Below are positions 22,514 through 36,181 of a DNA stretch of 64,000 bases, in pieces. The position numbers were made by a program, and so were the translations under genes. Within the stretch, counting starts at the first letter, position 1; each line of letters starts with the position of its first letter. The notes beneath the pieces are model-generated. The model did not search any database, was not told the origin of the DNA, and saw only the letters and a program-made list of their open reading frames with translations. This DNA comes from Anaerolineae bacterium (GTDB taxonomy: Bacteria; Chloroflexota; Anaerolineae; Anaerolineales; Villigracilaceae). Where the stretch lies: positions 40,566 to 104,565 of the forward strand of contig JABGQT010000072.1 of assembly GCA_018648685.1 (NCBI GenBank), given 5' to 3'.

Positions 22514-22852
22514 TTACTTCACTTCAACCAGCTCAACATCGAAGATCAAGGTTGCATTCGGGGGAATTAATCCGCCAGCGCCGCGTTCACCGTAGCCCAA
22601 CTCAGCGGGAATTGTGAGCGTGGCTTCGCCACCGACGTTCATCAGAGCAATGCCCTCGTCCCAGCCTTTGATCACTTGCCCAACACCCAATTCAAATTCG
22701 ATGGGTGTGCCACGATCATAAGAGCTGTCGAAAATTTTCCCATCCAGAAGTCTGCCTTCGTAATGTACGCTAACGGTTTTTCCGGCTTCGGCTTTTGGGC
22801 CTTTGCCGCGTTTTCTTTCTGTATATTCCAATCCACTTTCTGTTTTCATCAT
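22514..22852 (-). CDS. FKBP-type peptidyl-prolyl cis-trans isomerase
   Basis: VSVHYEGRLLDGKIFDSSYDRGTPIEFELGVGQVIKGWDEGIALMNVGGEATLTIPAELGYGERG. Confidence 0.94.
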   Translation of the reverse strand: MMKTESGLEYTERKRGKGPKAEAGKTVSVHYEGRLLDGKIFDSSYDRGTPIEFELGVGQVIKGWDEGIALMNVGGEATLTIPAELGYGERGAGGLIPPNATLIFDVELVEVK

Positions 22853-22901: not shown

Positions 22902-23444
22902 TCAGGCATCTAAAATTTTGAGCAAATCTTCAACTGGCGGCCGGTCAGTGGGATCGTAGCTGGGATACAGCAACTTGAATTTGCCGTCTTTGCCAATAAT
23001 AAAATCGCCGCCGAGCTGATCCAGATCATCTCCATGTGAATCGCCAGTTTTTTCTCCCCTTATCCAGGCTGTGAAATAATACCAACGTGTTTTCAAATTG
23101 CGAGAACGCCAATAGGAACGCTCCAGCCCATAGGCGTTGTACACTTCGCGTTCACGGTCGAGAAGAATGGTGAAATGATCGCAATTATCTCTCATCCATT
23201 CCTGAACAGCAGGGAGCGTCCCAAAGGAGATGACGATAACGCGCGTATCCCGTTTTTTGAATGCTGACTGGTGTTGGCACAACTGTGCCACATGCTCACG
23301 GCAGGGAATTCAACCAAGATGCCGCAAGAAGATTAGCAAAACATTATTATCTGCTTTGATCAATTCGTTGAGGGAGATTTCTTTCCCATCTGTCGATTGA
23401 AGCGTAAAAGAAGGAGCTATTTTGTTGTTTTTCAGTGTTGGCAT
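22902..23444 (-). CDS. Peroxiredoxin-like (AhpC/TSA_2, PRXL2-type) protein; candidate selenoprotein with UxxC active site, 180 aa
   Basis: ATG 23444: MPTLKNNKIAPSFTLQSTDGKEISLNELIKADNNVLLIFLRHLG-[TGA]-IPCREHVAQLCQHQSAFKKRDTRVIVISFG...; TGA at 23310-23312 in frame. The ORF track shows only the downstream 129 aa. Confidence 0.82.
23272..23292 (-). promoter_or_regulatory. SECIS-like hairpin immediately downstream of the in-frame UGA
   Basis: Minus-strand TGT-GGCAC-AGTT-GTGCC-a-ACA: 8 bp with one bulged A, GU in the apical loop, loop begins 26 nt after UGA. Confidence 0.6.
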
Positions 23445-23502
23445 AGAGTTCCTGTAAAAAACAGATAGTTATGAAGAAGACAGCTATTCAACCCTCTTAG
23501 AA

Positions 23503-23594
23503 TGTCTTTGCGAGGAGCATGCTTTTGCGACGCGGCAATCTCCAAGACTGCCTGGGAGATTGCTTCGTCGGATAAAACTCTCCTCGCAAAGACA
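23503..23594. repeat. Palindromic element family A, copy 2
   Basis: TGTCTTTGCGAGGAGCATGCTTTTGCGACGCGGCAATCTCC...GGAGATTGCTTCGTCGGATAAAACTCTCCTCGCAAAGACA. Confidence 0.85.
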
Positions 23595-23612
23595 TAGCTG
23601 AGGAAATATGGA

Positions 23613-24215
23613 TCAAGATAGCTTTCGTCGCGCCCATATAAGGCGTTGAGTAACGGTAATAAAAATCAGGGCACTGAAAACGATAAAAAGATGCAATAGA
23701 TATTGCGGCAGGATGAAAAAGAGAGAATAGAAAATAATCGTTTCGAAGCCGCCGATGAGACCAGCGGGCATAACGATGGTCGTTGCGGTTTCGGGGTTGC
23801 GGGTGGCACGTTTTTCAAGGATGGCTGCCAGATACATCCACGAGGCAGTGTTAAGGTAGTAGGTAGAAAGCAAAAAAGCTAAAGCCAGATAAATGTTTTG
23901 GGAGGCAGCCCCAAGCCCAAATCCGAGAGGGATGGCGGCGTAAGCGGTGAAATCCAGCAGAATATCTAAGTAACCGCCAAAGTCATCCTGTTTATTATGC
24001 AGACGAGCGAGCAATCCATCCAGACCATCGAGGGCGCGATTGATGAGCCAAAATGCCAATCCCCAAAGATAGAGGCGTTGTGTGGCAAATATTGCGCTGC
24101 CGATGCCAAAAAATACGCCAATAATAGAAATTGTATTCGGGGAAATACGCGTCATACGCCGAGCGATTGGCTCAACGATGCGATCTTTGGTGTTGCGGAG
24201 GTAGGTATCGAACAT
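23613..24215 (-). CDS. CDP-alcohol phosphatidyltransferase family protein
   Basis: DGLDGLLARLHNKQDDFGGYLDILLDF signature. Confidence 0.9.
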   Translation of the reverse strand: MFDTYLRNTKDRIVEPIARRMTRISPNTISIIGVFFGIGSAIFATQRLYLWGLAFWLINRALDGLDGLLARLHNKQDDFGGYLDILLDFTAYAAIPLGFGLGAASQNIYLALAFLLSTYYLNTASWMYLAAILEKRATRNPETATTIVMPAGLIGGFETIIFYSLFFILPQYLLHLFIVFSALIFITVTQRLIWARRKLS

Positions 24216-24228
24216 TGTTTTCCTAAAT

Positions 24229-24319
24229 TGTCATTGCGAGGAGCATCTTTTCGCGACGTGACAATCCCCAAGACAGTCGGGGAGATTGCTTCGTCGGATA
24301 AAGCTCTCCTCGCAATGAC
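24229..24319. repeat. Palindromic element family A, copy 3
   Basis: TGTCATTGCGAGGAGCATC...GACAATCCCC...GGGGAGATTGCTTCGTCGGATAAAGCTCTCCTCGCAATGAC. Confidence 0.85.
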
Positions 24320-24320
24320 G

Positions 24321-26012
24321 TTAGTTTCTCCACGCCAAACGCGCATCTTTCTTTCGCCGCCAACGCAAATAGGCACGCGCATACAGGAGCTTATCTTCTG
24401 CGCCTTTGATCGCAAGATCGAGCAGGGACATGTCGCCAAAGAAATGTTTTTTATACGCGCCACTGCCCATGAAACCATCTTCTTTGTTGAAAAGCGTCAG
24501 GCGGAATTTCTTTTTAGCGAGATGATTTTTTCCATCCAGAATGGCATCGAAGGGTAGCGGAAGCCATTTAAAATCACGGAAGAGCGCGTTCGCTTCAGCG
24601 ACCATGTGGTCGACATCGGCTTCGTTGGCGGGGTCAACTGCGCTGAAAAGGGCATCCACTTTTTGCTGCACGTCAAAAAATTCTGCAAAGCCACCGCCCG
24701 CCAAACGATTGTTTTTGAGTAGGGCAATATACTCGTTGCGGTCTTTTGCGCGCATCCGCGTGATGCTCAACATCAGATATTCGAGATACGCGCCCAGCAG
24801 CCACTGCACCGAGTAAACGCGCCAAAGTTTGTAATTTGACCACGATTTGATCGAGTTGACCGTCAATTGATCGTGCATTTTGACATAGCCGAGCGTGATC
24901 TCTTCAAGCGGCGCAAAGGCTTTCGCCGAATAATCGCCCGTCTTTTTTGCCTTGAGCAACAGATCTGCGAGCAGCATGATCGTCATATGCGTCACATAAA
25001 GCCCTTTTGAATAGAGCGGATCAATGAACCCGACCGAGTGCCCGAGCAGAGCGAATCGGTTGCCAACAACTTTTTTGGATGAATACTGGAGACGCTCGGC
25101 TCGCACCCAGCCCCGAATTTGCTTGGCATTTGTGAACTGTTTTTTCAACCCGGGGAATTGCTCGATAAATCCGTAAAATTCATCTTCGGGCGTTATATCG
25201 GTACGTGGGGGATGGATGCGCGGATCAAGCAAAAGTCCCACGCTCACAACGGGGTTTGTTGCCTCGGCATAATTATTAAAAGGGATCACCCACAACCAGC
25301 CACCCTCGAAAAGGTGATGCAATGTCCCCTCCGACCAGCGGAAAGGAACGCCGTTTTCTTCACGCGAAAAAGAGACATCGTGAAAACAAGGCACATCGAC
25401 CATATGCGTGAACATCCCGCGTGTATTTGTCTTTAGATCAAAATCGCGCAGCTCAAATTTATGGGCAAGCAATGAGCGGAATCCGCCCGCATCGACGATA
25501 TATTCAGCTTGATATTCTTCGTCTTTTGCTGTTGAAATGCTCACGCCATCATCACTAAAATCGACATCTTTTACGGGCGTATTTTGCAAAATCGTCGCGC
25601 CGTAGGAAATAGCGACCGAAGTCAGGAAAGAGTCACTATCTTGCCGATAAATATGCAATTCGTGCCCATAAGGTTCTTTAGGAATGACGGCTTGCAAGGT
25701 TCTTTCGGGCATTGGCTCTTTGCCGATTTCGTGATGTACAAAACCAAAATGTCGTTTTACGCCGTGCGTAGTTCCGGCATAATCGAGATAATTTTCAGAG
25801 CTGAAATAAGCCAGTTCAGGCACATCGTAAAACTTCGCCAACGCGCGCATCATCTCGGATGTCTCCAAAATGGTCGATTCACCGATCGCAAATTTGGGGT
25901 GCTGCCCAGCTTCAAAGACGATCACATCCAAGCCCTGCCGCGCCAAAATTGAAGCCAGTGTTGAGCCACCCATCCCCGAGCCGATGATTGCTACATCGTA
26001 TTTTTTGGTCAT
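24321..26012 (-). CDS. FAD-dependent oxidoreductase, flavin-halogenase/geranylgeranyl-reductase-like
   Basis: [42 protein letters not shown] (WxWxIP). Confidence 0.8.
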
Positions 26013-26048: not shown

Positions 26049-26780
26049 CTACGGCAATTGCTGCGCCGCATCTTCATCCACCATCCAACGTGTGCTCTCC
26101 ACCGAGATCGCCTGCGAGGGAAAACGATCAATATCTCTTTCTTCGCCGAGCGCATTGGCGAGCGCATCCGCTTTGGATGCGCCGCTGACCATGAAAACGA
26201 TTTCGCGCGCGTGATTGATGACAATGGGCGTAAGCGTCAGCCGCGTGGATGGTCTGCCTTGATAATCGCCTTCTGTGCTGATAACGGGATTTGTCCACAG
26301 CGCAGATTGCCCCACAAAAAGGGATGCGGTGTGCCCATCATCTCCCAGCCCGAGCAGAACCAGATCGAAGCGGACATGTTTTGAGTTTGATTTCGTATAA
26401 GAATCTAGCGTTTGATGATAAGCGTCTACTGCTTCGCGCGGAGAGAGATGTGTGGGCATCGGATGCAGATTTCCATCGGGAATGCCAACGTGTTTCAGCA
26501 AGGCTTCGCCTGCCTGATAAAAATTACTCCCTGCATCATCATGTGGAACATGGCGCTCATCGCCCCAGAAGAGATGCACTTTCTTCCATTCGATTTGACT
26601 TTTAAACGGTTCTTGCGCAAGTAAGCGATAGGCTTTTAGCGGCGTACCACCGCCGCTGAGCACGGCAAGGAAACGTCCGCGTGCGCGGATGGCTTCATCT
26701 GCCTTTTGGATGAAGTGTTTGGCGAAGGCGAGAGCGAGGGTATCGCTGTTTGGGTAGATGTTTAGGTTTTGTGGGTTCAT
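26049..26780 (-). CDS. pgl: 6-phosphogluconolactonase
   Basis: LAVLSGGGTPLKAYRLLAQEPF...VHLFWGDERHVPHDDAGSNF...DLVLLGLGDDGHTASLF; start set to MNPQNL. Confidence 0.93.
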   Translation of the reverse strand: MNPQNLNIYPNSDTLALAFAKHFIQKADEAIRARGRFLAVLSGGGTPLKAYRLLAQEPFKSQIEWKKVHLFWGDERHVPHDDAGSNFYQAGEALLKHVGIPDGNLHPMPTHLSPREAVDAYHQTLDSYTKSNSKHVRFDLVLLGLGDDGHTASLFVGQSALWTNPVISTEGDYQGRPSTRLTLTPIVINHAREIVFMVSGASKADALANALGEERDIDRFPSQAISVESTRWMVDEDAAQQLP

Positions 26781-26790
26781 TTTTTTGTGA

Positions 26791-26897
26791 TGTGATTGCG
26801 AAGGAGCGATAGCGACTGTGGCAATCTCCCCCACTGTCGTGGAGATTGCTTACCCCTTCGGAGCACAGGTCGACGATAAAACTGTCTCGCAATGACA
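26791..26897. repeat. Palindromic element family A, copy 4
   Basis: TGTGATTGCGAAGGAGCGATAGCGAC...GGCAATCTCCCCCAC...GTGGAGATTGCTTACC...CTCGCAATGACA. Confidence 0.75.
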
Positions 26898-26915
26898 AAT
26901 CAAGTTAGGTTTGGG

Positions 26916-27008
26916 GAGTGCGTCGCACGAACTTCGACAGACTGATTCTTGTCGATGGGAAAATGTTCACCGAAGAGTAGAATCTCATCTTTTTGGTGCG
27001 ACGCACCC
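26916..27008. repeat. Palindromic element family B, copy 2
   Basis: GAGTGCGTCGCACGAACTTCGAC...TTTTTGGTGCGACGCACCC. Confidence 0.75.
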
Positions 27009-27027
27009 TCTATTTGCTTTAGTGAGC

Positions 27028-27090
27028 GGAGTCCAACGTCTCCAGACGTTGGTTTTTGATAACGCCGAAATCTGGAGATTTCGGACTCCA
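27028..27090. repeat. Palindromic repeat family C, copy 2
   Basis: GGAGTCCAACGTCTCCAGACGTTGG...CCGAAATCTGGAGATTTCGGACTCCa. Confidence 0.7.
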
Positions 27091-27092
27091 AA

Positions 27093-28556
27093 CTAATTTA
27101 TTCGATGACTCACACAACCAAATCGCCATTGATGCCCATCGCGGGCGAGGAGAGCGGTAGATTCTTCGGGACCCCACTCTCCTTTTTTATGGGTAGCAAG
27201 TTTGGGTTGAGCGCGTTCCGCCCAGCTATTTATAACGGGATCAATTATCCGCCAAGAGGCTGTTATTTCATCGGAACGGGTAAAGAGGGAGGCATCCCCA
27301 TCCAATGCTTCAAGCAGTAAACGCTCGTAAGCTTCGGGGATAGTGGCGCCGTCGAAGAAATCGTCGTAGGCAAAATCCATGTTGACGGAGCGCATTTCCT
27401 GATCGGAATCGGGGACTTTTGCCTCGAAGCGGAGTTGAATGCCTTCGTCGGGCTGGATGCATATCGAGAGGATATTTGGAGTGAAATCGCGCCCTTCGGG
27501 GAGGTCGAACATGAGGTGCGGCGGGCGCTGAAACTCGATGATGATCTCGGAATTTTTATGTTTGAGCGCCTTGCCGGAGCGCAGATAAAATGGCACGCCC
27601 TGCCAGCGCCAATTATCGATAAAGAGTTTGAGGGCGGCATAGGTGGGGGTTTGAGAATTGGGTGCAACGCCTTCGGCTTGAGCATAACCCTCGTATTGGG
27701 CGCGGACGGTATCGTTGAGATCAATGGGGCGAATGCTCTGGAAAACCTTCGCTTTTTCGTTGCGGACGGCATCTGCGTCGAAGGATGCGGGAGCTTCCAT
27801 GGCGACCAATGCGAGCAATTGAAAAAGATGATTTTGGAACATATCACGCAGGACACCCGACTTATCGTAATAGCCTGCACGTTCGCCAACATCGACACTT
27901 TCGGCAACACTGATCTGGATGTTGTTGATATAGCCTCGATTCCAGAGCGGCTCAAAGATGGTATTCGCAAAACGGAAGAAGAGGATATTTTGGGAGGTCT
28001 CTTTGCCGAGATAATGGTCGATGCGATAGACCTGACGCTCTTCAAACGCCGCATGAACAGCACGGTTGAGTGCCTGTGCGGAGGCGAGATCACGCCCGAA
28101 GGGTTTCTCGATGATGATGCGTCGCCATTTGTCAGCATCTTCTTTTGACATGCCTGCTTTCCCTAGAAAACCAGCAACAGGTGCATAGAATGAAGGAGCG
28201 GTGGCAAGGTAGTAAAGGCGGTTGGCGTTATCGCCTTCCAGCCCATGCAAGAAAGTGTGTAGTTTTGCAAAATCATCGGCTTGGTCGAGATTGCCACGAA
28301 AATAATGGATGCGCGTGACGAAATCCCCCCAGATTTTCTCGTCGAAAGTGTCTGGGCTAAATTTCTGAACACCTTCACGCAAGCGGGCACGGAAAGTTTC
28401 ATTGTCGTAAGGGCGACGGGCAAAACCGACGACATTGGCGCACTCATCCAGTCGCCCCTTTTTGAAATTATTATAGAGGGCGGGGATGAGTTTTCGCCAA
28501 GTTAAGTCGCCGGATGCACCGAAGATGATGATGCTGGTGGTGTGTTGTTTCTGCAT
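27093..28556 (-). CDS. zwf: Glucose-6-phosphate 1-dehydrogenase
   Basis: IIIFGASGDLTWRKLIPALYNN...EKPFGRDLASAQ...YRIDHYLGKE. Confidence 0.96.
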   Translation of the reverse strand: MQKQHTTSIIIFGASGDLTWRKLIPALYNNFKKGRLDECANVVGFARRPYDNETFRARLREGVQKFSPDTFDEKIWGDFVTRIHYFRGNLDQADDFAKLHTFLHGLEGDNANRLYYLATAPSFYAPVAGFLGKAGMSKEDADKWRRIIIEKPFGRDLASAQALNRAVHAAFEERQVYRIDHYLGKETSQNILFFRFANTIFEPLWNRGYINNIQISVAESVDVGERAGYYDKSGVLRDMFQNHLFQLLALVAMEAPASFDADAVRNEKAKVFQSIRPIDLNDTVRAQYEGYAQAEGVAPNSQTPTYAALKLFIDNWRWQGVPFYLRSGKALKHKNSEIIIEFQRPPHLMFDLPEGRDFTPNILSICIQPDEGIQLRFEAKVPDSDQEMRSVNMDFAYDDFFDGATIPEAYERLLLEALDGDASLFTRSDEITASWRIIDPVINSWAERAQPKLATHKKGEWGPEESTALLARDGHQWRFGCVSHRIN

Positions 28557-28650
28557 TATGCCCCCATCCTAGCCTTCCCCCGAGGGGGGAAGGGACAAAT
28601 TCTCCTCCCTGTGGGGGGAGTTAGAGGGGGGCTGGAGTGAGTCTTTTTCA

Positions 28651-29559
28651 TTACTCCGCCTTTTTTACAGCGTGCCCGCCGAACTGATTGCGCATCGCAG
28701 AAAGGACTTTGGCGGCGTAGCTTTCATCTTGTCGGCTGGAGAATCGTCTCTGTAGTGAGAGTGTGATGACGGGCGCAGGTACATCTAAATCGACGGCTTC
28801 AAAGACAGTCCAGCGTCCTTCGCCGCTATCCGAAACATAGCCAGCGATATCGCTCAAATCCTGGTCATCTTCGAGGGCGTTGGCGGTTAGATCGAGCAGC
28901 CATGAGCGGACGACGCTGCCGTGTCGCCAAATCTCTGCGACCTGATGCAGGTCAAGACCAAAATCTTTCTTGGCGTGCATGATCTCAAATCCCTCGGCAT
29001 ACGCCTGCATCATGCCATATTCGATTCCATTGTGGATCATTTTGACAAAATGTCCGGCTCCGACAGGGCCAACATGTCCCCAACCTAAATCTGCAGCTGG
29101 AGCGAGAGTCTCGAAAATCGGACTCAGCCTTGAAACGGCTTCCGTTGTTCCACCGATCATCATACTGTAGCCTTCTGCGAGCCCCCAAACGCCTCCGCTA
29201 GTGCCGACATCCACATAATTGATCCCTTTTTCTGCCAGCGTTGCTGCCCGTCGGATATCATCTTTATACATCGTGTTTCCACCGTCGATAATGGTATCCC
29301 CATCTGAAAGCAGTTCGCCCAACTCGTCGATGACGGATTCTGTTATTTTCCCAGCAGGGACCATTACCCAAACCACACGCGGCGCAGATAATTTCTCGGT
29401 GACTTCGGACAAAGTCCGCGCACCTTCTGCGCCTTCAGATTCCGCCTTTTGGATAGCTTCTTCGTTCAAATCGAAAGCGACGACGTTATTTCCACCGCGT
29501 AGCAAGCGCGAGGTCATATTCGCGCCCATTTTTCCTAATCCGATCATAGCTAGTTTCAT
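28651..29559 (-). CDS. gnd: 6-phosphogluconate dehydrogenase, decarboxylating (short GntZ-type)
   Basis: MKLAMIGLGKMGANMTSRLLRGG...DGGNTMYKDDIRRA...YVDVGTSGGVWGL...VGAGHFVKMIHNGIEYGMMQAYAEGF. Confidence 0.94.
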   Translation of the reverse strand: MKLAMIGLGKMGANMTSRLLRGGNNVVAFDLNEEAIQKAESEGAEGARTLSEVTEKLSAPRVVWVMVPAGKITESVIDELGELLSDGDTIIDGGNTMYKDDIRRAATLAEKGINYVDVGTSGGVWGLAEGYSMMIGGTTEAVSRLSPIFETLAPAADLGWGHVGPVGAGHFVKMIHNGIEYGMMQAYAEGFEIMHAKKDFGLDLHQVAEIWRHGSVVRSWLLDLTANALEDDQDLSDIAGYVSDSGEGRWTVFEAVDLDVPAPVITLSLQRRFSSRQDESYAAKVLSAMRNQFGGHAVKKAE

Positions 29560-35074: not shown

Positions 35075-36181
35075 ATGACCAAAGCCACTGCGCCCGGCAA
35101 GATCATATTATTTGGCGAACATGCCGTTGTTTATGGGCAGCCTGCGCTGGCTGTGCCTGTAAACCAGATTCATGCGGATGCGGAAGTCTTGGATGTTGAC
35201 CGCGCTGGTGGGATCTGGGTCAACGCCCCCGACATTGGATTGCACGAAGAACTTTCCCGAATCGCTCCTGACGATGCACTTGCTACCGTTATAAGGAGTG
35301 TTTTCTCTGCCCTTGGCATCTCTGTCATTGCGAGGAGGACTTTATCCGACGAAGCAATCTCCCTCACTGTCATGGAGATTGCTTCGTCGCAAACGCATGC
35401 TCCTCGCAAAGACATGCGAGAGGGCATAGAAATCAAAATCACATCCACCATCCCACTCGCCTCGGGGCTTGGCTCAGGCGCGGCGGTATCGGTTGCGATC
35501 ATCCGTGCATTATCCGCGCATTTGGGGCATCCGCTTAGGGATGAGCGTGTGAACGAGATCGCCTACGAAGTGGAGAAGATCCATCACGGCACACCCTCGG
35601 GGATAGATAACACTGTCGTGACCTATGGAAAGCCGATCTTCTTCTTAAAAATCCCTTATTGGGTTTTCCCTCCTATCAGTGGTAGCAAATTTCCTCCGCC
35701 TAAAGGAGAAAAATCGCCGAGATGGGGCAGGAAAGATAGAAATGCCATCGAATTATTGAATGTTGCAAAGCCTTTCACCATCATTATTGGCGATACCGGC
35801 ATCCCCGCCCCAACGAAAGAATCTGTAGCCGATGTACGTAAGCTCTGGGAGCAGAATCCGCACGAGATTGAGACTCTTTTCGCCGCAGCAGGTAGCATTG
35901 CCAAAACAGCGCGGCAATCTATCGAGGGTGGGCATCCCGAACGTTTGGGAGCATTAATGAACGAGAACCAGCGCATTTTGCAGGAGATGGGCGTTTCTTC
36001 ACCAGAATTGGATCGCTTAACGGAAGCAAGCCTAAAGTCTGGCGCGAGCGGGGCGAAGCTATCCGGTGGAGGCAGGGGTGGGAATATGATCGCCCTATCC
36101 ACAAAAGAAAATGCCCCGACAATTGTCGAGGCGCTGTATAAAGCGGGGGCTAAGAATGTGATCGTTACTAATATTGAATAG
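35075..36181 (+). CDS. Mevalonate kinase (GHMP family) carrying an in-frame repeat insertion
   Basis: ATAPGKIILFGEHAVVYGQPALAVPVNQ; PLASGLGSGAAVSVAIIRAL; HGTPSGIDNTVVTYG; GAKLSGGGRGGNMIAL. Confidence 0.92.
   Translation: MTKATAPGKIILFGEHAVVYGQPALAVPVNQIHADAEVLDVDRAGGIWVNAPDIGLHEELSRIAPDDALATVIRSVFSALGISVIARRTLSDEAISLTVMEIASSQTHAPRKDMREGIEIKITSTIPLASGLGSGAAVSVAIIRALSAHLGHPLRDERVNEIAYEVEKIHHGTPSGIDNTVVTYGKPIFFLKIPYWVFPPISGSKFPPPKGEKSPRWGRKDRNAIELLNVAKPFTIIIGDTGIPAPTKESVADVRKLWEQNPHEIETLFAAAGSIAKTARQSIEGGHPERLGALMNENQRILQEMGVSSPELDRLTEASLKSGASGAKLSGGGRGGNMIALSTKENAPTIVEALYKAGAKNVIVTNIE
35323..35414. repeat. Palindromic element family A, copy 7, inside the mevalonate kinase CDS
   Basis: TGTCATTGCGAGGAGGACTTTATCCGACGAAGCAATCTCC...GGAGATTGCTTCGTCGCAAACGCATGCTCCTCGCAAAGACA. 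Confidence 0.9.

Follow-up and report, generated by a model that had tools for sequence, protein, structure and literature searches.

Peroxiredoxin (Prx)-like proteins that carry selenocysteine (Sec, U) in a UxxC or UxxU motif are already recorded, both by reviews and by surveys of metagenomes (PMC13188914, PMC9312934, PMC2398784). Among them, SelL has been called a Prx-like protein (PMC2398784) and is placed in aquatic eukaryotes and bacteria in a passage of PMC2874816 that cites Shchedrina 2007. Furthermore, a table of PMC13188914 lists a Prx-like thiol:disulfide oxidoreductase with the PF00578 domain and a UxxC or UxxU motif, predicted with high confidence. No Chloroflexota member of the SelL-related family is named in PMC13188914, nor in the deep-Sep and prokaryote-review literature that we searched, a body of work whose coverage is incomplete.

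Here we describe such a gene in the window, by which we mean the whole stretch of 64,000 nucleotides of Anaerolineae DNA that was analysed. We are highly confident that the locus is a functional gene for a SelL-related, Prx-like selenoprotein of the UxxC type. The sequence evidence supports the frame, its UGA, selection on both sides of it, a SECIS hairpin and the Sec machinery; Sec insertion at codon 45, the catalytic cycle and the substrate are what we infer.

An in-frame UGA in a peroxiredoxin-like gene

Read from the ATG at 23444 on the minus strand, a frame of 180 codons contains a single internal stop, the TGA at 23312-23310 (codon 45), as a first-pass annotation of this DNA had claimed. 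The parts of the gene are as follows.

22902-23444, minus strand: predicted gene of a SelL-related Prx-like selenoprotein, 180 codons, opened by ATG and closed by TGA at 22904-22902
23310-23312, minus strand: in-frame UGA, predicted selenocysteine, first position of UxxC, TGA in 49/49 distinct close homologues
23449-23453, minus strand: AGGAA 4 nt ahead of the selenoprotein ATG, probable Shine-Dalgarno site, read from the sequence

The second redox residue of the motif is Cys48 (U-I-P-C, in ...FLRHLG-U-IP-C-REH...), and AAGGAA is found at the place equivalent to the Shine-Dalgarno site in a sister species (genome G007) and in genome G008. The conventional ORF list holds for this locus just a 129-aa fragment started at GTG (22902-23291), which is the truncation that the first-pass annotation had described. 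Its claim that homology continues in the same frame on both sides of the TGA was likewise borne out: in the read-through translation, the best Pfam match (AhpC-TSA, residues 8-111, 71.5 bits) spans the TGA, and the NF040769 model covers residues 10-177 with 151.5 bits, above its cut-off of 120, which argues that the read-through is not due to chance. The proposed membership of PRXL2 held in part, in that PF13911 (AhpC-TSA_2) passes its gathering score (46.5 versus 27 bits), but the match covers only residues 57-164, downstream of the UGA, and NF040769 is the best family; all 40 members of our family alignment match it too. TGA read-throughs of comparable size elsewhere in the window, inspected by eye, have no similar context.

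Conservation of the UGA and selection on both sides of it

We found TGA at codon 45 in all of the relatives compared, with identities of 76, 60, 58, 54, 56, 52, 43 and 38%. A scan of genome collections followed by translation yielded 49 distinct close sequences, all with TGA, of which 47 have UxxC, one UxxU (L059) and one UxxY (L055); none of the 49 has a Cys form at the UGA column. More distant family members carry CxxC in 31 cases and Sec in 18, counts that are to be read with the scan patterns in mind, as these may favour certain motifs. In an unbiased sample of 400 Chloroflexota genomes, 33 matches exceed the NF040769 cut-off, about 19 with TGA versus 14 with Cys. One homologue with TGA (L175), 42% identical, belongs to Bellilinea caldifistulae strain GOMI-1. 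Homologues beyond Chloroflexota include metagenome-assembled genomes filed as Gammaproteobacteria, Poribacteria and Armatimonadetes. The first-pass annotation had placed the UGA exactly on the first redox Cys, giving UxxC, and this agrees with Sec in every close homologue and Cys in the 31 distant ones.

Next to this conservation stands the record of substitution. Compared with the sister species, codons 1-44 have a dN of 0.175 and a dS of 1.76, and codons 61-180 a dN of 0.185 and a dS of 1.19, so that dN/dS is about 0.1-0.16 on either side of the TGA, from small counts and with dS near saturation. Directly after the UGA, in codons 46-60, dS falls to 0.13. Such a pattern of dN/dS and dS is that expected of a coding region overlaid by an RNA element.

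These data bear on whether the TGA is simply a nonsense mutation, or a misread TGC or TGT, in which case the short GTG-started fragment or nothing at all would be made. Plain ORF calling does return that 129-aa fragment. However, the identical TGA recurs in the 49 distinct close homologues, the 44 codons upstream of it are under purifying selection, and the hairpin described below covaries. Homologues scoring above 190 bits have no further stop in the aligned region, except that the UxxU protein has another TGA, and the additional lesions of a pseudogene, which the first-pass annotation had named as a sign against its reading, are thus not what we see. Because independent genomes have TGA at the equivalent codon, sequencing error is excluded in practice, and we regard a pseudogene or an error as extremely improbable.

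A covarying hairpin downstream of the UGA

Published rules for the bacterial SECIS (bSECIS) give a loop of 3-9 nt with G in the first two loop positions, a stem of 4-16 bp, a spacing of 16-37 nt from the UGA and a minimum free energy of at most -7.5 kcal/mol (PMC13188914, Fig. 2). A bSECIS search had been suggested in the first-pass annotation, and a hairpin within these rules was found at the expected place.

23273-23291, minus strand: predicted bSECIS hairpin, stem GUGGCAC / GUGCCAAC, loop AGUU at 23284-23281 (covariation, synonymous-codon null, fold, dS)

Counted from the U of the UGA, the hairpin takes up nt 22-40 and the loop nt 29-32; it has the AGUU loop, 8 pairs, a spacing of 25 nt after the UGA and a free energy of -9.6 kcal/mol. 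Among the 49 close sequences, 96.7% of the cells of the five core pairs are standard pairs, compared with a mean of 81% (maximum 86%) when the 3′ letters are shuffled and a mean of 64% (maximum 71%) when synonymous codons are redrawn. Changes on both sides of the core pairs number 0, 9, 3, 4 and 21 cells (37 in total), counts that are inflated by relatedness, for much of which the Cys homologues and the synonymous-codon null control. All four inner pairs are formed in 98% of the sequences versus 17% under the synonymous-codon null. On folding, the same 4-nt loop is obtained for 47 of the 49 close sequences versus 2 of the 31 Cys homologues, and the latter are paired at 41% over seven pairs. 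Support is poor for the two outermost pairs, and, folded as a single sequence, the hairpin does not stand out from shuffles (z from -0.6 to -1.3). Collectively, it is the comparison between sequences, and not the folding of any single one, that identifies the hairpin as a putative bacterial SECIS.

Selenocysteine machinery of the genome

The source genome (3.56 Mb in 215 contigs, 88.5% complete) contains selB on contig C162 (337 bits), selA on contig C212 (547 bits) and selD on contig C138 (348 bits), each exceeding its NCBIfam cut-off. The selD gene itself has an in-frame TGA (...LAACAGUASKL...), at its active-site position, which in SelD proteins is occupied by Cys or Sec. Searches of this genome for tRNA-Sec, with RF01852 and with two DNA patterns, returned only tRNA-Ser, other ordinary tRNAs and chance matches, and Rfam and ARAGORN found no RNA genes in the window. 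The contig with selA, however, aligns to its last base with the tRNA-Sec locus of the sister species, used as a probe, and its terminal 50 nt are identical (50/50) to nt 44-93 of that tRNA-Sec; the 5′ half, which includes the anticodon, could be located on none of the contigs. The apparent absence of the tRNA-Sec is explained by C212 ending inside it. A complete tRNA-Sec scores above the cut-off, at 63-71 bits, in 7 of the 8 other genomes of the genus, and selC is very probably present here as well, split by the assembly. The first-pass annotation had pointed to selA, selB, selC and selD and had counted an absence of Sec machinery against its reading; three of the four genes were located, with the 3′ 50 nt of the fourth, so the machinery is there.

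Two more Prx-like genes of the same genome have an in-frame TGA and are probably additional selenoprotein genes.

C155:2139-2468: Prx-like gene with in-frame TGA, ...GFVUPYC... (L090)
C150:11422-11751: Prx-like gene with in-frame TGA, ...GFFUPFC... (L091)

That more than one gene of the genome contains an in-frame TGA would also fit a lineage in which UGA is read as an ordinary amino acid, through a general change of the code or a suppressor tRNA. Against this, the read-through sites examined are redox or catalytic Cys/Sec positions, and both Sec machinery and a SECIS exist. Furthermore, TGA terminates 13 of the 50 long ORFs in the window, which rules out a window-wide code change. We give such decoding hardly any credence and favour Sec at codon 45: SelB with Sec-tRNA-Sec would bind the hairpin 25 nt downstream during translation, and selenocysteine would be inserted at the UGA.

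Predicted fold and active site

An AlphaFold2 model of high confidence, built from the family alignment (pLDDT 91.8, pTM 0.89), has residue 45 immediately before a helix at 46-57, and in this predicted thioredoxin-like domain Sec45 would stand where a CxxC motif has its nucleophilic Cys. Foldseek matches to the model include peroxiredoxins, ResA and the human prostamide/PGF synthase (PGFS, PRXL2B), whose solved structure aligns nearly full length (14-174), with its GCxxC opposite GUxxC in the sequence profile.

Since Prx folds top the Foldseek list and AhpC-TSA is the best Pfam match, the protein might instead be a classical peroxidatic peroxiredoxin, with its attacking residue in a PxxxT/SxxC motif, rather than a CxxC-type oxidoreductase. 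The alignments argue otherwise. In profile alignments with the solved peroxiredoxins 2cx3 and 4gqc, the peroxidatic Cys lies opposite Cys48 and the Ser/Thr of T/SxxC opposite Sec45; for archaeal Bcp, the residue opposite Sec45 is the Ser of SxxC and that opposite Cys48 the peroxidatic Cys. The PxxxT/S residues are absent (RHLGUIPC), distant homologues have CxxC, and only PGFS aligns over nearly the full length. A classical peroxiredoxin is accordingly an unlikely reading, to which we still allow some weight.

The PGFS and Bcp alignments favour a thioredoxin-like UxxC cycle, which we consider the probable one. Under this hypothesis, Sec45 would attack a peroxide or a disulfide as the selenolate, resolution by Cys48 would give a Se-S bond, and recycling would fall to a reductant of the thioredoxin type. 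Resolution by Cys48 may not hold throughout, since one homologue (L055, UxxY) has Tyr at that position. More generally, the resolving Cys is replaced by Tyr (UxxY) or Sec (UxxU) in L055/L144 (genome G015), L059, L109 and L123, and these proteins provide a natural series for probing the resolving step.

Gene neighbourhood

Two genes upstream are conserved neighbours of the predicted selenoprotein gene.

23613-24215, minus strand: CDP-alcohol phosphatidyltransferase (PF01066), just upstream, linked at 22 public loci
24321-26012, minus strand: flavin-dependent halogenase homologue (PF04820), upstream (co-occurrence, PDB matches)

The best solved relatives of the flavoprotein are tetracycline 7-halogenase (E 5.5e-109) and PltM. 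It retains the GxGxxG and WxWxIP motifs, and its Lys86 aligns to a lysine of PltM that is presumably catalytic. At 20 of the 22 loci where the selenoprotein and phosphatidyltransferase genes are linked, the halogenase homologue is present too; gene order is rearranged at one linked locus (L147). The flavoprotein occurs in the genomes of 8 of 48 relatives, and 7 of these 8 also have a close selenoprotein (1e-7 in a naive hypergeometric test that ignores relatedness). As more distant TGA homologues lack the linkage, the cluster characterises a single clade and not the SelL-related family.

That the gene is linked to a CDP-alcohol phosphatidyltransferase and to a flavoenzyme resembling halogenases hints that the substrate of the selenoprotein may plausibly be a product or by-product of the linked pathway. 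We tentatively suggest, as a possibility that we would not yet bet on, that the conserved cluster encodes an Anaerolineae pathway not yet characterised, in which the selenoprotein has a dedicated role: it would either catalyse one redox step on a lipid head group, possibly a halogenated one, or remove peroxide or hypohalite leaked from the flavoenzyme.

Several other features of the region were observed. A palindromic repeat (TTTGCGAGGAG...GACGAAGCAATCTCC...CTCCTCGCAA) has copies at 23500-23600, 24226-24322 and 35320-35416, and so occupies both gaps of the halogenase-phosphatidyltransferase-selenoprotein cluster. Across the genome it gives 55 match rows with both strands counted, corresponding to at least about 30 places. 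At many other loci the gap between the phosphatidyltransferase and selenoprotein genes is only about 25 nt. Genes for 6-phosphogluconolactonase, glucose-6-phosphate dehydrogenase and 6-phosphogluconate dehydrogenase adjoin the cluster (26049-29559, minus strand), and 6-phosphogluconolactonase is near it in the sister species also. Directly downstream of the selenoprotein gene, at 22514-22846 on the minus strand, is a gene for an FKBP-type peptidyl-prolyl isomerase, found beside the selenoprotein gene only in G007 and G008 among the loci fetched.

Comparison with known selenoproteins

Standard ORF calling would annotate this gene as a truncated fragment or a pseudogene, with loss of the active-site half of the protein. 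Since the predicted SECIS is clear and the close homologues with Sec number about 50, the locus is well suited as an example of how Chloroflexota annotations can be corrected. Only the linkage to the halogenase homologue and the phosphatidyltransferase might be unexpected for specialists; it offers a testable lead to the physiological substrate of a SelL-type selenoprotein.

The protein itself departs from the classical peroxiredoxin motif PxxxT/SxxC(U), as its RHLGUIPC has the Sec at the T/S position. PRXL2B (PDB 9us9, 9usa) gives a nearly full-length profile match (2.2e-14) and has a similar fold, but carries Cys where the window protein has Sec, and its mammalian lipid-endoperoxide substrate is not implied for the window protein. 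With SelL of aquatic eukaryotes and bacteria the window protein shares a common Prx-like family, in which the second Sec of the SelL UxxU corresponds to Cys48; however, with a single Sec (UxxC) it would form no diselenide and is not a SelL in the strict sense, although a UxxU relative (L059) comes from the same order as the window organism. The Prx-like thiol:disulfide oxidoreductase of PMC13188914, likened here by its table description, matches the window protein in both domain and Sec motif. Closest of all is the SelL-related redox protein family NF040769, of which the window protein is a full-length member with no structural difference, belonging to a UxxC branch. Taken together, these comparisons place the selenoprotein that the window gene almost certainly encodes in a family already known, to which it adds a UxxC member from the Anaerolineae (Chloroflexota).
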